Positions 10,783-14,376 of a stretch of 64,000 nt of DNA are shown here, piece by piece. Each line of letters begins with the position of its first letter. The stretch's first letter is position 1. Below the pieces are notes generated by a model. The model saw only the letters and a program-made list of their open reading frames with translations. It had not been told where the DNA came from and searched no databases. The stretch is from NCBI RefSeq assembly GCF_016809835.1, contig NZ_JAFBIL020000002.1:310001-374000 (forward strand), written 5' to 3'. Source of the DNA: Massilia soli (GTDB lineage: Bacteria; Pseudomonadota; Gammaproteobacteria; Burkholderiales; Burkholderiaceae_D). A program made the position numbers and the translations under genes.

Positions 10783-12144
10783 CTATTCCAGCGCTTTCTG
10801 GACACTCGCCACGCCAACCTCGGCCGTGCCTTCGGCCAGCCGCACCGTCAGCGCCGCGCGCGCGTGAATCTGGTCCGGCGAGCGCAGCACCTTGCCGCGG
10901 CTGTCGCTGACAATCGCATAGCCGCGCTCCAGCGTGCGCTGCGGGTTGAGCAGTTCAAGCTGGGCCGCCAGCGCGCCGAGCGCGTCGCGCCGCTGGCCCA
11001 GCTGGCTGGCAATGCTGGCCGCGCAGTGGCGCTGCTGCGATGCCAGCTCTGCGCGCAGCGCGCGCACGTCCGGACGATGGCGCGCCCAGCGCGCGCGCAG
11101 CTGCGCCAGCGCCATGCCGTGGCGGTTGACCGGCGCGCGCACGGCGTGGGTGAGGGCGGTCGACAGCGCGACCACCTTCAGGCGCTGGTGCCCGATCTGG
11201 GCCGATGGGCTGAGCAGGCGCCGCGTGTAGTTGTCGAGATTGAGGTTGGCTTCGGACAGCATGCGCCGCATCGCGCGCCGCAGGTCGGTGGCGTCGCCCG
11301 ATAACGACGCCATCCAGTCCGCGCGCGGCGTCGCCGCCAGTTCGGCCGCCGCCGTCGGCGTGGCGGCGCGCAGGTCGGCGGCAAAGTCGGCGATCGTGAA
11401 ATCGGTCTCGTGGCCGACGCCGGCAATCACCGGCATGCTGCAGCCGGCGATCGCCCGCGCCACGACTTCTTCGTTGAAGCTCCACAGGTCTTCGATCGAG
11501 CCGCCGCCGCGCACCACCAGCAGCACGTCGACTTCGGCGCGGTGCGATGCGGTCGCAATCGCGTCGGCGAGCTTCTGCGCGGCCAGCTGGCCCTGCACCG
11601 GCGCCGGGTAGAGCACGATGCGCAGGTGCGGCGCACGCCGCTGCAGCGCCGTCAGCACGTCGCGCAGCGCAGCCGCCTGCGGGCTGGTGACGATGCCGAC
11701 CGAGCGGGTAAACATCGGCAACGCGCGCTTGCGGTCCTGGTCGAACAGGCCCTGCGCGGTGAGCTTGTCCTTCAGCCGCAGGAAGGCTTCGTACAGCGCG
11801 CCGACGCCGGCGCGGCGGATCGCTTCGACATTGATCTGGTAGTCGCCGCGCGCGCCATACAAGGTCACCAGCGCGCGCACTTCGACCTTGTCGCCTTCGC
11901 GCGGAATGAAGCCGGCAAACTGCGCGCGGCCGCGGAACATCACCGCGCGCACCTGGGCCGCGTCGTCCTTGAGGGTGAAGTACCAGTGCCCGGAGCTGGC
12001 GCGCGTGAAGTTGGAGATTTCGCCGCCAATCCAGGTGAGCGGAAAGCTGCGCTCGAGCAGGCGCGCCACCTGGGCATTGAGCGCGGTGACGGTCAGGACC
12101 GGCGGGGCGGCAAATTCAGGGGCGTCGTCGGAAATGGTATGCAT
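10783..12144 (-). CDS. xseA: Exodeoxyribonuclease VII large subunit
   Basis: The ATG at 12144 gives 453 residues beginning [11 protein letters not shown]; 17 further upstream codons are open but are not family-like. The N-terminal OB-fold includes [20 protein letters not shown], the catalytic domain has [31 protein letters not shown] and [19 protein letters not shown], followed by a long helical region and the C-terminal [10 protein letters not shown]. This is the complete XseA architecture. With XseB (not in the window) it degrades single-stranded DNA in both directions. The upstream region is the gene-free DnaA-box array. Confidence 0.96.
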
Positions 12145-12273
12145 GGTGAGACGGGGCGCGTGCGGCTTTTTGTCGCAAAGCCGCCATGGTATCAAGTTAT
12201 CTGCATAAGTGATTGATTTTCAAAGAAGTTAACGGCTGCCTCAATTTGCCGCAGGACGCAAAAACCTTTATGG

Positions 12274-12337
12274 ATCAAGGACTTTGCCTAGCTCAGTCGG
12301 ATTTACGCACAAAGTTATCCACAATTTGTGTGGGGAA
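12274..12337 (+). repeat. DnaA-box repeat unit 1
   Basis: ATCAAGGACTT at 12274; core 12303-12337 with TTACGCACA, exact DnaA box TTATCCACA at 12315-12323, and TGTGGGGAA. Confidence 0.85.
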
Positions 12338-12402
12338 GTTTTGCCGTTGCGAGAGCGCGGCGCGTGATGAAAAATTGAGCTTTGGAAACAAACTCTTTAT
12401 GA

Positions 12403-12466
12403 ATCAAGGACTTAGTTGTTTGTCAATCCAATTGCGCACAGTGTTGTCCACAGAAGGTGTGCAGAA
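12403..12466 (+). repeat. DnaA-box repeat unit 2
   Basis: ATCAAGGACTT at 12403; core 12432-12466 with TTGCGCACA, near-consensus TTGTCCACA at 12444-12452, and TGTGCAGAA. Confidence 0.8.
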
Positions 12467-12541
12467 AGCGCTTGAACGGCCGTCGGCCGCAGCAGCTTAT
12501 CCACTGCCATATTTTTAAGCGATACCATTTTATCGTTAATA

Positions 12542-12604
12542 ATCAGGTGCTTGCAGAGTGTTGGGCGGCTTGCGCACAGTGTTCTCCACAGAAGCTGTGC
12601 AGAA
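12542..12604 (+). repeat. DnaA-box repeat unit 3
   Basis: ATCAGGTGCTT at 12542 (28 bases before the core rather than 29); core 12570-12604 with TTGCGCACA, TTCTCCACA at 12582-12590, and TGTGCAGAA. Most diverged unit in the first half. Confidence 0.75.
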
Positions 12605-12733
12605 CGGCGGTCGGTCCGCTTGTCCCGGTCGCCAGTTGCGTTGGATCCGTTCGCCCAGGCCCAAAAACCAGCCAAAAACCCATCCATCACCCCGCTTGCA
12701 TACTATTTATGCAAGGAAAGAAAAGTGTTTCAA

Positions 12734-12797
12734 ATCAAGGGGATTGCATCAAAGAAATCAGCTTGCTCACAATCTTATCCACAGTAAGTGTGAAGAA
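12734..12797 (+). repeat. DnaA-box repeat unit 4
   Basis: ATCAAGGGGATT at 12734; core 12763-12797 with TTGCTCACA, exact TTATCCACA at 12775-12783, and TGTGAAGAA. Confidence 0.85.
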
Positions 12798-12871
12798 GCC
12801 GGCCGGCGCCGGGATCACGCGGTGTGCGGTGCGCTGATGAAATTTTAGGCGAGAGGAAATTGTCTCGCTGA

Positions 12872-12935
12872 ATCAATGACTTGCACTTCGATCAGGGGTG
12901 TTGCGCACAATTTTATCCACAGTTAATGTGTGAAA
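12872..12935 (+). repeat. DnaA-box repeat unit 5
   Basis: ATCAATGACTT at 12872; core 12901-12935 with TTGCGCACA, exact TTATCCACA at 12913-12921, and TGTGTGAAA. Confidence 0.85.
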
Positions 12936-12999
12936 TTAACCGAAACCCGGGCCGGGCGAATCTGCCCGTATTTTAGGCTATGCAATTTCTTCCTTTGAA

Positions 13000-13063
13000 A
13001 TCAATCGCTTAGGGCCATGCCCGCCCGATTGCGCACAATTTTATCCACAGATTCTGTTCGCAA
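13000..13063 (+). repeat. DnaA-box repeat unit 6
   Basis: ATCAATCGCTT at 13000; core 13029-13063 with TTGCGCACA, exact TTATCCACA at 13041-13049, and a weaker third 9-mer TGTTCGCAA. Confidence 0.85.
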
Positions 13064-13171
13064 CTTGTGTACAACCGCAGGTCTGCAACGCCGACCTCGC
13101 CGCGCGGGCTGCGAGGGGACACGTCGTCCAATCCTGCCTTGATTTTGATCAATGCAAAAAAACGTTGTGGA

Positions 13172-13235
13172 ATCAACGGCTTAGGTATATGCATGCGTGC
13201 TTGCACACAATCTTATCCACACATCCTGTGCAGAA
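13172..13235 (+). repeat. DnaA-box repeat unit 7
   Basis: ATCAACGGCTT at 13172; core 13201-13235 with TTGCACACA, exact TTATCCACA at 13213-13221, and TGTGCAGAA. It ends 84 bases before the exbB start. Confidence 0.85.
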
Positions 13236-13318
13236 CCCTACTTGCCGTCTAGCTGGCAACACGTTACATTGCCGGGGTTGTCTCACCCCCGGCTGTTCCA
13301 TTTACTCAGGAGTTTGTT

Positions 13319-13924
13319 TTGCTCGCCATTATTCAAGCTGCAGGCTGGCCTATCTGGCCGTTGCTGATCGCCTCCGTCATCGCACTGGCGCTGATTATCG
13401 AACGCCTCATCTACCTGCGCCGCGCCAGGATCCTGCCTCCCCAGCTGCTCGACGAGGTCGTCCGGGTCTACCATAATGGCAAGATCACCAAGGAAGTGAT
13501 CGACAAGCTGGAACAGAATTCGCCGCTCGGCACGGTGCTGGCCGCCGCCCTGCGCAACGCTAACGCGCCGCGCGAGGTGATGAAGGAATCGATCGAGGAG
13601 GCCGGGCGCGGCGTCGCCCACGTGCTCGAGCGCTTCCTCACCACCCTCGGCACCATCGCCTCGCTGGCGCCGTTGATGGGATTGTTCGGCACCGTGGTCG
13701 GCATGATCGAGATCTTCGGCGCGCAGAACGCCACCGGCACCAACCCGGCCCAGCTGGCCCACGGTATTTCAGTCGCCCTGTACAACACCGGCTTCGGCCT
13801 GGCCATCGCGATGCCGTCGATGATCTTCTATCGCCACTTCCGCGCGCTCGTCGACAGCTTCGTCATCGACATGGAGCAGCAGTCGGTCAAACTGGTCGAC
13901 ATCATGCACGGCGCCCGCAAATGA
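13319..13924 (+). CDS. exbB: MotA/TolQ/ExbB family proton channel protein
   Basis: This 201-residue protein starts at a TTG supported by an AGGAG RBS six bases upstream; no ATG fits. It has three membrane helices (near residues 7-27, 105-130 and 150-172) and the family motif LERFLTTLGTIASLAPLMGLFGTVVGMI. It would form a proton-driven energy transducer with ExbD for TonB-dependent uptake. The stop overlaps the next start (ATGATG). No tonB is present in the window, although a TonB-dependent receptor lies at its left end. A TolQ or AglR-like role is possible. Confidence 0.88.
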   Translation: MLAIIQAAGWPIWPLLIASVIALALIIERLIYLRRARILPPQLLDEVVRVYHNGKITKEVIDKLEQNSPLGTVLAAALRNANAPREVMKESIEEAGRGVAHVLERFLTTLGTIASLAPLMGLFGTVVGMIEIFGAQNATGTNPAQLAHGISVALYNTGFGLAIAMPSMIFYRHFRALVDSFVIDMEQQSVKLVDIMHGARK

Positions 13925-14376
13925 TGAACTTTCGCCGCGGCCAGCGCCGCGAAGACCCCGAGATCAACCTGATCGCGTTTATCGACGTGCTGCTGGTCGT
14001 GCTGATCTTCCTGATGGTGACGACTACCTACAGCAAGTTCACCGAACTGCAGATCACGCTGCCGACGGCCGACGCCGAGAAGGCGCTCGACAGGCCGTTC
14101 GAGATCAACGTGACCGTCGACGCCAAGGGCAACTACACCGTCAACAACGTGCCGGTGTCCTTCCACAGCGTGGCTGGGCTGGCCGAAGAATTGAAGAACG
14201 CCGCCCGCACCGGCCCTGACGGCCAGCCGATGGCCACCCCGGCCGCCAGCCCGGTCGTCATCGTCAACGCCGACCAGTTCGCCATGCACCAGATGGTGAT
14301 CAACGTGCTGGAAGCTTCGCGCATCGCCGGCTACGACAAGCTGACCTTCGCCGCGCAGACCGGCACCAAGAAGTAG
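13921..14376 (+). CDS. exbD: Biopolymer transport protein ExbD/TolR
   Basis: This 151-residue protein has a short cytosolic N-terminus (MMNFRRGQRREDPEINLIAF), one membrane helix (about residues 18-38) containing the conserved Asp of IDVLLVVLIFLM, and a periplasmic domain ending YDKLTFAAQTG. This is the ExbD/TolR layout. It overlaps exbB by four bases and precedes lpxK by 35 bases, a conserved order in Burkholderiales. ATG at 13924 is an equally good start. It would convert proton flow through ExbB into work on TonB or a TonB-like partner. Confidence 0.9.
   Translation: MMNFRRGQRREDPEINLIAFIDVLLVVLIFLMVTTTYSKFTELQITLPTADAEKALDRPFEINVTVDAKGNYTVNNVPVSFHSVAGLAEELKNAARTGPDGQPMATPAASPVVIVNADQFAMHQMVINVLEASRIAGYDKLTFAAQTGTKK

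Follow-up and report, generated by a model that had tools for sequence, protein, structure and literature searches.

What is the role of an intergenic region in which DnaA boxes are repeated in seven similar units? The window considered here is a 64,000-nucleotide stretch (C22:310001-374000) of the Massilia soli genome assembly (4.99 Mb, 39 contigs). Between the gene for XseA on the - strand and an ExbB-type gene on the + strand (from 13319), it contains seven cores of 35 nt, all on the + strand, starting at window positions 12303, 12432, 12570, 12763, 12901, 13029 and 13201, with core-to-core spacings of 129, 138, 193, 138, 128 and 172 bp. Re-mapping of the cores on the + strand confirmed the number, orientation, places and spacings of the units given in an earlier, sequence-only reading of this DNA. 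Two further statements of that reading also hold: five cores contain the exact DnaA consensus TTATCCACA (units 1, 4, 5, 6 and 7), and an ATCAA-type box starts 29 bases before the core in six of the seven units and 28 bases before it in unit 3, where it reads ATCAG. The only open frames in the intergenic region are of 92-126 aa, all running through the repeats, and are not taken for genes. We consider it fairly probable, judging from the sequence, that the seven units are compact modules of the DARS2 type (DARS, DnaA-reactivating sequence) arranged in tandem. The features of the locus are as follows.

10783..12141, - strand: xseA (exonuclease VII large subunit; TIGR00237, 458 bits against a cut-off of 180), divergent left neighbour and conserved flank; the start codon is our choice, and the longest frame begins at 12195
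12237..12337, + strand: unit 1, with TGC..GCA (Fis-like) element, A/T tract, IHF-type site 12273-12285 (GATCAAGGACTTT, 7/9 consensus positions) and core 12303-12337 (box III TTACGCACA, 3 bp, box II TTATCCACA, 5 bp, inverted box I); full-unit profile E 4.5e-16
12366..12466, + strand: unit 2, with IHF-type site 12402-12414 (exact WATCAANNNNTTR) and core 12432-12466
12504..12604, + strand: unit 3, with IHF-type site 12541-12553 (AATCAGGTGCTTG, 8/9) and core 12570-12604
12697..12797, + strand: unit 4, with IHF-type site 12733-12745 (7/9) and core 12763-12797
12835..12935, + strand: unit 5, with IHF-type site 12871-12883 (exact consensus) and core 12901-12935
12963..13063, + strand: unit 6, with IHF-type site 12999-13011 (exact consensus) and core 13029-13063, in which box I is imperfect (TGTTCGCAA)
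13135..13235, + strand: unit 7, with IHF-type site 13171-13183 (exact consensus) and core 13201-13235; the genome's best unit by the full-unit profile (E 1e-18)
13319..13924, + strand: exbB-type gene (MotA/TolQ/ExbB family; PF01618 above cut-off), right neighbour and conserved flank
13921-14376, after the exbB-type gene: exbD-type gene (ExbD/TolR family; PF02472 above cut-off)
After the exbD-type gene: lpxK, kdsB and adk, each above curated cut-offs

The full-unit profile is a sequence-only profile built from 62 units of 12 loci, the window units among them. A second profile, of the core only, was built from 54 cores; since these include the seven of the window, it is not independent of the array. 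It ranks the seven window units as the top matches in the genome (E 1.9e-9 to 1.2e-6), followed by a place at 4.5e-4. The exact sequence TTATCCACA is present 22 times in the genome (4.99 Mb), compared with 6 for a reversed-pattern control, and five of the 22 fall within the ~0.9 kb of the array. The two-box pattern, allowing at most one mismatch, has eight matches genome-wide and none in the control. The earlier designation of the locus as a DnaA-box array is upheld.

Anatomy of the units in related arrays

The anatomy of the units was derived from a set of 102, drawn from the window and 17 further loci. They were selected with a pattern covering boxes III and II, which accounts for part of the conservation of these two boxes. 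Same-genus relatives contribute ten of the 18 loci, and we count this against the DARS2 reading. The sample leaves aside a locus between hemE and priA with four cores of the same geometry (L027 in G017) and two other box clusters, L035 (G030) and L031 (G021). Three elements are conserved across the units: TGC-N11-GCA at -66 to -50, AATCAANNNNTTR at -30, and the core itself, with the consensus TTGCKCACA-3-TTATCCACA-5-TGTGCAGAA. The 9-3-9-5-9 geometry of the core is found in all seven window units. The TGTG of box I stands 5 bp after box II in 86 of the 102 units; unit 6 of the window, where box I is weak, has TGTT instead.

The element at -30 is the IHF consensus, printed as WATCAANNNNTTR (PMC4585315). 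At -30 or -29, this consensus is exact in 41 of the 102 units and fits at eight or more of its nine positions in 75 (shuffles: mean 0.1, maximum 2). The predicted IHF site is next to the core, 17 bp upstream of box III. The earlier proposal that a second protein is bound at a fixed phase thus appears to be right, with IHF as the candidate.

The TGC-N11-GCA element has an A/T-rich centre (79% A+T over the central seven positions), and G-N13-C, the outer frame of the Fis consensus, is present at -65 in 86 of the 102 units. The element was scored against GNNYRNNNNNYRNNC, which we take to be a form of the Fis consensus; at least five of the six positions fit in 51/102 units (shuffles: mean 3.9, maximum 10), and the fit is full in 28/102. 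The form printed in PMC4585315 (GNNYANNNNNTRNNC) is fully matched in 16/102 units. We refer to the element as Fis-like and do not call it Fis, an assignment that would be weak. Both the DARS core geometry and this third conserved element were absent from the earlier reading.

Conservation within the unit was followed by aligning the window array with two related arrays (L017 and L019). Identical columns make up 199/245 of the core (box II 62/63, box III 55/63, box I 51/63), 78/119 of the TGC..GCA element, 64/91 of the IHF site, 47/133 of the A/T tract, 43/119 of the linker and 125/398 of the DNA between units. At the same index, units of different species are more alike (mean likeness 0.77 between the window and L019, 0.64 between the window and L017) than at different index (0.55 and 0.54, respectively), from which we conclude that the array is old and that its units hold their places. 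An exception is L034 (G029), in which five of the units form a 245-246-bp repeat of near-identical sequence, which is a recent amplification. L034 also carries a GCATCGCTACGATGC palindrome near the place of the TGC..GCA element.

Comparison with DnaA-binding loci of E. coli

On the reverse strand of MG1655, the DARS1 core reads TAATACACA-TGG-TTATCCACA-GGAAT-AGTGGATAA and the DARS2 core TTCTTCACA-ACT-CTATCCACA-GAAAA-GGTGAATAA. Both are 9-3-9-5-9 with the last box inverted, a geometry identical to that of the array cores, and the letters of boxes III and II agree with a table in PMC11317965. A common structure of three boxes with equal spacing and an opposite box I is described for DARS1 and DARS2, and a marked trait of DARS sites is that the molecules on boxes I and II meet head to head (PMC5742627). 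Close matches to a double box with 2 or 3 bp between the boxes are reported at 15 of 16 E. coli DnaA-bound regions, and pairs 3 bp apart also occur at datA, oriC, polA and purH (PMC11317965). Because such pairs occur elsewhere too, it is the inverted box I that separates DARS from other DnaA sites. The E. coli DnaA regulon has a class of double DnaA boxes, 2-3 bp apart, and the box III-box II pair of the array shares this arrangement with its 3-bp spacing. The class, however, is defined by the pair alone, without the inverted third box or the fixed IHF site (a comparison made for datA and oriC only).

A core profile from the 102 units was used to score seven chosen stretches of E. coli DNA (214 kb together, under 5% of the genome). 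DARS2 ranks first with +18.7 bits and DARS1 second with +9.4, followed by the DARS2 box V region (+1.1), datA (-1.5), oriC (-2.4) and the best other place (-4.0).

DARS2, located upstream of mutH (core at NC_000913.3 2969135-2969169), shares with the array the three boxes in 9-3-9-5-9 geometry with box I inverted, IHF-type sites beside the core, and a position far from the origin. Beyond the IHF-type sites come Fis sites in DARS2 and, in the array, the Fis-like element, which is only a probable Fis site. DARS2 carries IHF and Fis sites (PMC5742627), the IHF sites lying between the core and the Fis sites; function depends on IBS1-2 and FBS2-3 and on where they stand, and shifting them is harmful (PMC4245941). 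A cluster of ATP-DnaA boxes (V and V-a to V-c) overlaps the Fis sites (PMC8682772). IBS1-2 were not located by a consensus search of the E. coli sequence, and the places of the other DARS2 boxes suggest that they lie on the box III side of the core. The module order of core, IHF-type site and Fis-like element would match that of DARS2, compressed to ~100 bp, with a partial fit for Fis. In contrast to the array, DARS2 is a single copy with a ~400-bp regulatory region, two IHF sites and extra boxes, whereas the array modules are ~100 bp each, with one IHF site 17 bp from the core, in seven tandem copies and with other gene neighbours.

DARS1, upstream of uvrB (core 813107-813141), has the same core geometry and the ~100 bp size of the array modules, but is a single copy and is active in vitro without added factors (PMC5742627). 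datA resembles the array in combining DnaA boxes with an IHF site in non-coding DNA at a conserved place. It differs in lacking an inverted box 5 bp after the pair, in lying nearer to oriC and in being a single copy.

The proteins on which DARS2 depends have counterparts in the Massilia soli genome, which contains ihfA, ihfB and a Fis-family gene. The ihfA and ihfB products score above curated cut-offs, and two HU-type proteins are also present. The Fis-family protein (77 aa), encoded directly after dusB, scores 121.3 bits against a cut-off of 122 (NF002517) and 86.6 against 99 (NF001659). DnaA is 61% identical to E. coli DnaA in domains III-IV and retains Lys178, Val211, Lys243, Arg245, Asp269, Arg281, Arg285, Leu290 and Arg334, of which Leu290 and Asp269 have been tied to DARS2 and DARS1 (PMC5742627). 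Arg227 (AID-1) of E. coli DnaA is replaced by His, and this counts against the DARS2 reading.

Distribution and gene context

With the full-unit profile (E<=0.001; E-values are rough, and the distant weak matches were not read one by one), at least one match is found in 114 of 116 genomes of the family, covering 44/44 genera, some with a single weak match only. Matches are present in 198/250 genomes of the order (eight family genomes included) and, mostly weaker, in 115/299 genomes of the phylum (members of the same order included). All 16 same-genus genomes contain 6-9 two-box matches on one strand. Of the genus genomes, G005, G006, G009, G011, G013 and G015 have six or seven such matches on one strand, and G006 has one cluster on C6. 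Array hosts among the matches listed are Massilia, Janthinobacterium, Duganella, Pseudoduganella, Rugamonas, Collimonas and one Herbaspirillum-labelled strain.

The earlier expectation that the units are conserved between xseA and exbB in relatives is borne out. For the 84 fetched loci with at least three units, a set that includes some genomes twice and in which many loci, as 8-kb pieces, have truncated flanks, both genes are alongside in 69, one in 14 and neither in only one (L027, at hemE-priA). In L142, also from this family, the three units are weaker and their IHF sites perfect; the xseA-exbB genes are not in evidence there.

Genomes outside the family usually carry one copy or a few. 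Fourteen loci were chosen from the best matches in other families. Single elements lie at xseA-exbB in four of these (L130, L131, L136, L140), beside hemE in six (L127, L128, L129, L134, L138, L139; five of the six also with priA) and elsewhere in four (L132, L133, L135, L137). Only one of the 14 elements reaches eight of the nine IHF positions, which is counted against the DARS2 reading. G242, from another family (f31), has eight unit-profile matches on several contigs, perhaps an independent expansion. The strict core pattern also has matches in gamma-proteobacteria beyond the enterobacteria: L173, L239 (Stutzerimonas stutzeri chromosome) and L151, L154 and L224 (Pseudomonas).

Chromosomal position

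The observation that the array is not next to dnaA is correct: in this genome dnaA is on contig C11 and the array on C22, and in seven other genomes the two lie 0.146-0.328 of the contig or genome apart. The individual distances, worked by hand, are 0.312 (G012), 0.146 (G017), 0.313 (G033, main contig), 0.275 (G067), 0.292 (G087), 0.328 (G108) and about 0.21 (G142); G116 and G065 (weak units, 0.335 by the short way, not at xseA) were dropped. The corresponding distances from oriC in E. coli are 0.21 for DARS2, 0.33 for DARS1 and 0.10 for datA. The short distance in G017 is counted against the DARS2 reading.

GC skew was sampled in three of these genomes. In G012 it is mostly minus to ~1.4 Mb (the cumulative minimum), noisy to ~2.1 Mb, then mostly plus as far as 5.6 Mb, and minus again from 5.9 Mb on, which places the array (3.68 Mb) inside the plus half. 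The skew is about zero at the array itself and is noisy, with single 20-kb samples of either sign in both halves. In G017 it turns plus at ~5.4-5.6 Mb and minus at ~3.0-3.8 Mb, and the array (0.90 Mb) is again inside the plus half. The sampled skew contains no switch at the array in G012 or G017; that of G033 is too flat to read.

Support for a probable DARS2-type array and alternative explanations

The DARS2-type reading draws on the core geometry, which is that of DARS1 and DARS2, together with the fixed IHF-type site and the conserved TGC-N11-GCA element. It draws further on the core profile, which ranks DARS2 and DARS1 first, on the family-wide occurrence, on the presence of ihfA, ihfB and Fis-family genes, on DnaA Leu290 and Asp269, and on the chromosomal position. 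At the level of sequence, the array has the features of a DARS core with an IHF site; its ADP-release activity is putative.

The main rival is a datA-like sink or inactivator, in which initiation is held back because the 21 boxes either titrate DnaA or act with IHF to stimulate ATP hydrolysis. We regard this as rather unlikely, and titration may hold alongside reactivation. Twenty-one boxes in ~0.9 kb, among them five of the genome's 22 exact consensus boxes, would suit titration; datA likewise combines DnaA boxes with an IHF site (PMC4585315), in E. coli a large part of DnaA titration is due to the DARS loci and datA themselves (PMC12371093), and seven copies fit titration as well. However, a pure sink needs boxes and not a fixed three-box geometry with a conserved IHF phase, and datA, which has no inverted box 5 bp after its pair, scores -1.5 with the core profile, compared with +18.7 and +9.4 for the DARS loci. 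It also lies 0.10 from oriC, whereas the arrays lie 0.15-0.33 from dnaA. The datA-like sink proposed earlier is retained as a possible function, but the box geometry of the array is that of DARS1 and DARS2 and not of datA.

Another explanation is that the array serves xseA and/or exbB as a promoter region under the control of DnaA, IHF and Fis, linking their expression to the cell cycle. This would explain why the array fills a divergent intergenic region and why at least one of the two genes is beside 83 of the 84 loci with at least three units. Yet single elements of the same kind are found beside hemE or elsewhere at 10 of the 14 loci from other families, and seven repeated modules exceed the needs of a promoter. 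A scan for sigma-70-like promoters found one compared with 0.9 expected, and a terminator scan gave nothing above shuffles. We consider this explanation improbable. Still less credible, to the point of being very improbable, is a main or secondary replication origin. DnaA boxes, IHF sites and A/T tracts do occur together in the array, and the usual origin place looks box-poor, since the 4.4 kb around dnaA in this genome (L012, C11:937417-941799, rpmH side included) contains only one TTWTNCACA box. Against this, other box clusters exist in the genome (at hemE-priA and mtnN), and the array is flanked on either side by plus skew in the samples from G012 and G017, so it is not the origin there. 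The earlier suggestion that the array is the origin itself is accordingly not supported, and we rejected it as a candidate.

Proposed mechanism and significance

If the locus is a DARS2-type array, each core would hold ADP-DnaA molecules on its three boxes, with those on boxes I and II oriented head to head. IHF, 17 bp upstream of box III, would bend the DNA so that another protein, probably Fis bound at the TGC..GCA element, is brought up to the DnaA complex. ADP would then be released, and apo-DnaA would leave and rebind ATP, so that ATP-DnaA would be regenerated for the next initiation. The seven modules would multiply this recharging output, and since the array would be replicated well after the origin, its dose would double within the cycle. 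We infer the protein occupancy, the direction of nucleotide exchange and the cooperation between units. The array is probably a multiplied control element for the timing of chromosome replication.

A more specific proposal is that the family turned a single DARS2-type element into 3-9 compact, IHF-bent modules at one fixed place, acting as a cooperative DnaA-recharging hub, with unit spacings tending to a common helical face (~10.7 bp); we put this forward tentatively, as possible though on the doubtful side.

A search by title and abstract start found no literature on DARS arrays or on DARS in Oxalobacteraceae, with subscription papers and preprints outside its range. None was found on DARS2 with Betaproteobacteria, where Greek-letter hyphenated spellings may escape the match. 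DARS papers, in the parts available, describe work in E. coli and conservation mainly in E. coli-related gamma-proteobacteria. One of them states that the DARS2 spacing is conserved in 'beta- or gamma-' proteobacterial species (PMC5742627), so to propose DARS2 outside the gamma-proteobacteria is not entirely new. A natural multi-copy DARS2-like array, with fixed and variable positions readable over dozens of species, would show which DARS parts are essential, and would extend the ADP/ATP-DnaA switch beyond the enterobacteria. The range of one to nine units would offer a natural dosage series for how DnaA recharging sets the timing of initiation.

Spacing of the units

Across the window and 70 other patterns, unit spacings cluster near 117, 128, 139, 150, 161, 171, 182, 192 and 203 bp, about one helical turn apart. 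For 124 spacings from 26 less-similar patterns, R is 0.374 at a period of 10.73, a value reached by 0/2000 jittered sets (L027 was left out of this test). The 84 distinct spacing values give no significant phasing (573/2000 jittered sets as high), and differences between orthologous gaps in 13 arrays peak at a period of 11.7 (R 0.26), with R of only 0.16 at 10.5. Helical phasing of the units is a lead, suggested by one test and not by two, and the spacings are also related by descent.

Other DnaA-box clusters in the genome

Upstream of the methylthioadenosine/SAH nucleosidase gene (mtnN), five exact DnaA boxes lie within 0.6 kb (C11:656532-657166; L097 8533-9167). This cluster has two copies of a stretch around TACTACTATNNNTGTATACATAC, reading as TAG/TAA triplets beside a box, which we take to be DnaA-trio-like; the TACTACTATNNNTGTATACATAC-type pattern, with at most three mismatches, is found in 7/12 genomes. 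The cluster is a possible origin or regulatory region.

The hemE-priA intergenic region carries cores of DARS geometry in this genome (C11:853650; L100 5651, +23.6 bits; hemE and priA confirmed), in G017 (C1:5746336-5747358, the four cores of L027) and in G012 (C1:1515335 area, L078). By eye, the core of this genome has no IHF consensus at -30. In G012 and G017 the region lies within roughly 0.1-0.3 Mb of the minimum of the sampled, noisy GC skew. An isolated core of DARS geometry (C38:168410-168444; L098 6411, +21.3 bits) overlaps the end of an open frame of 204 aa that has no match in Pfam, and a weaker one is found at L098 9858 (+5.1).
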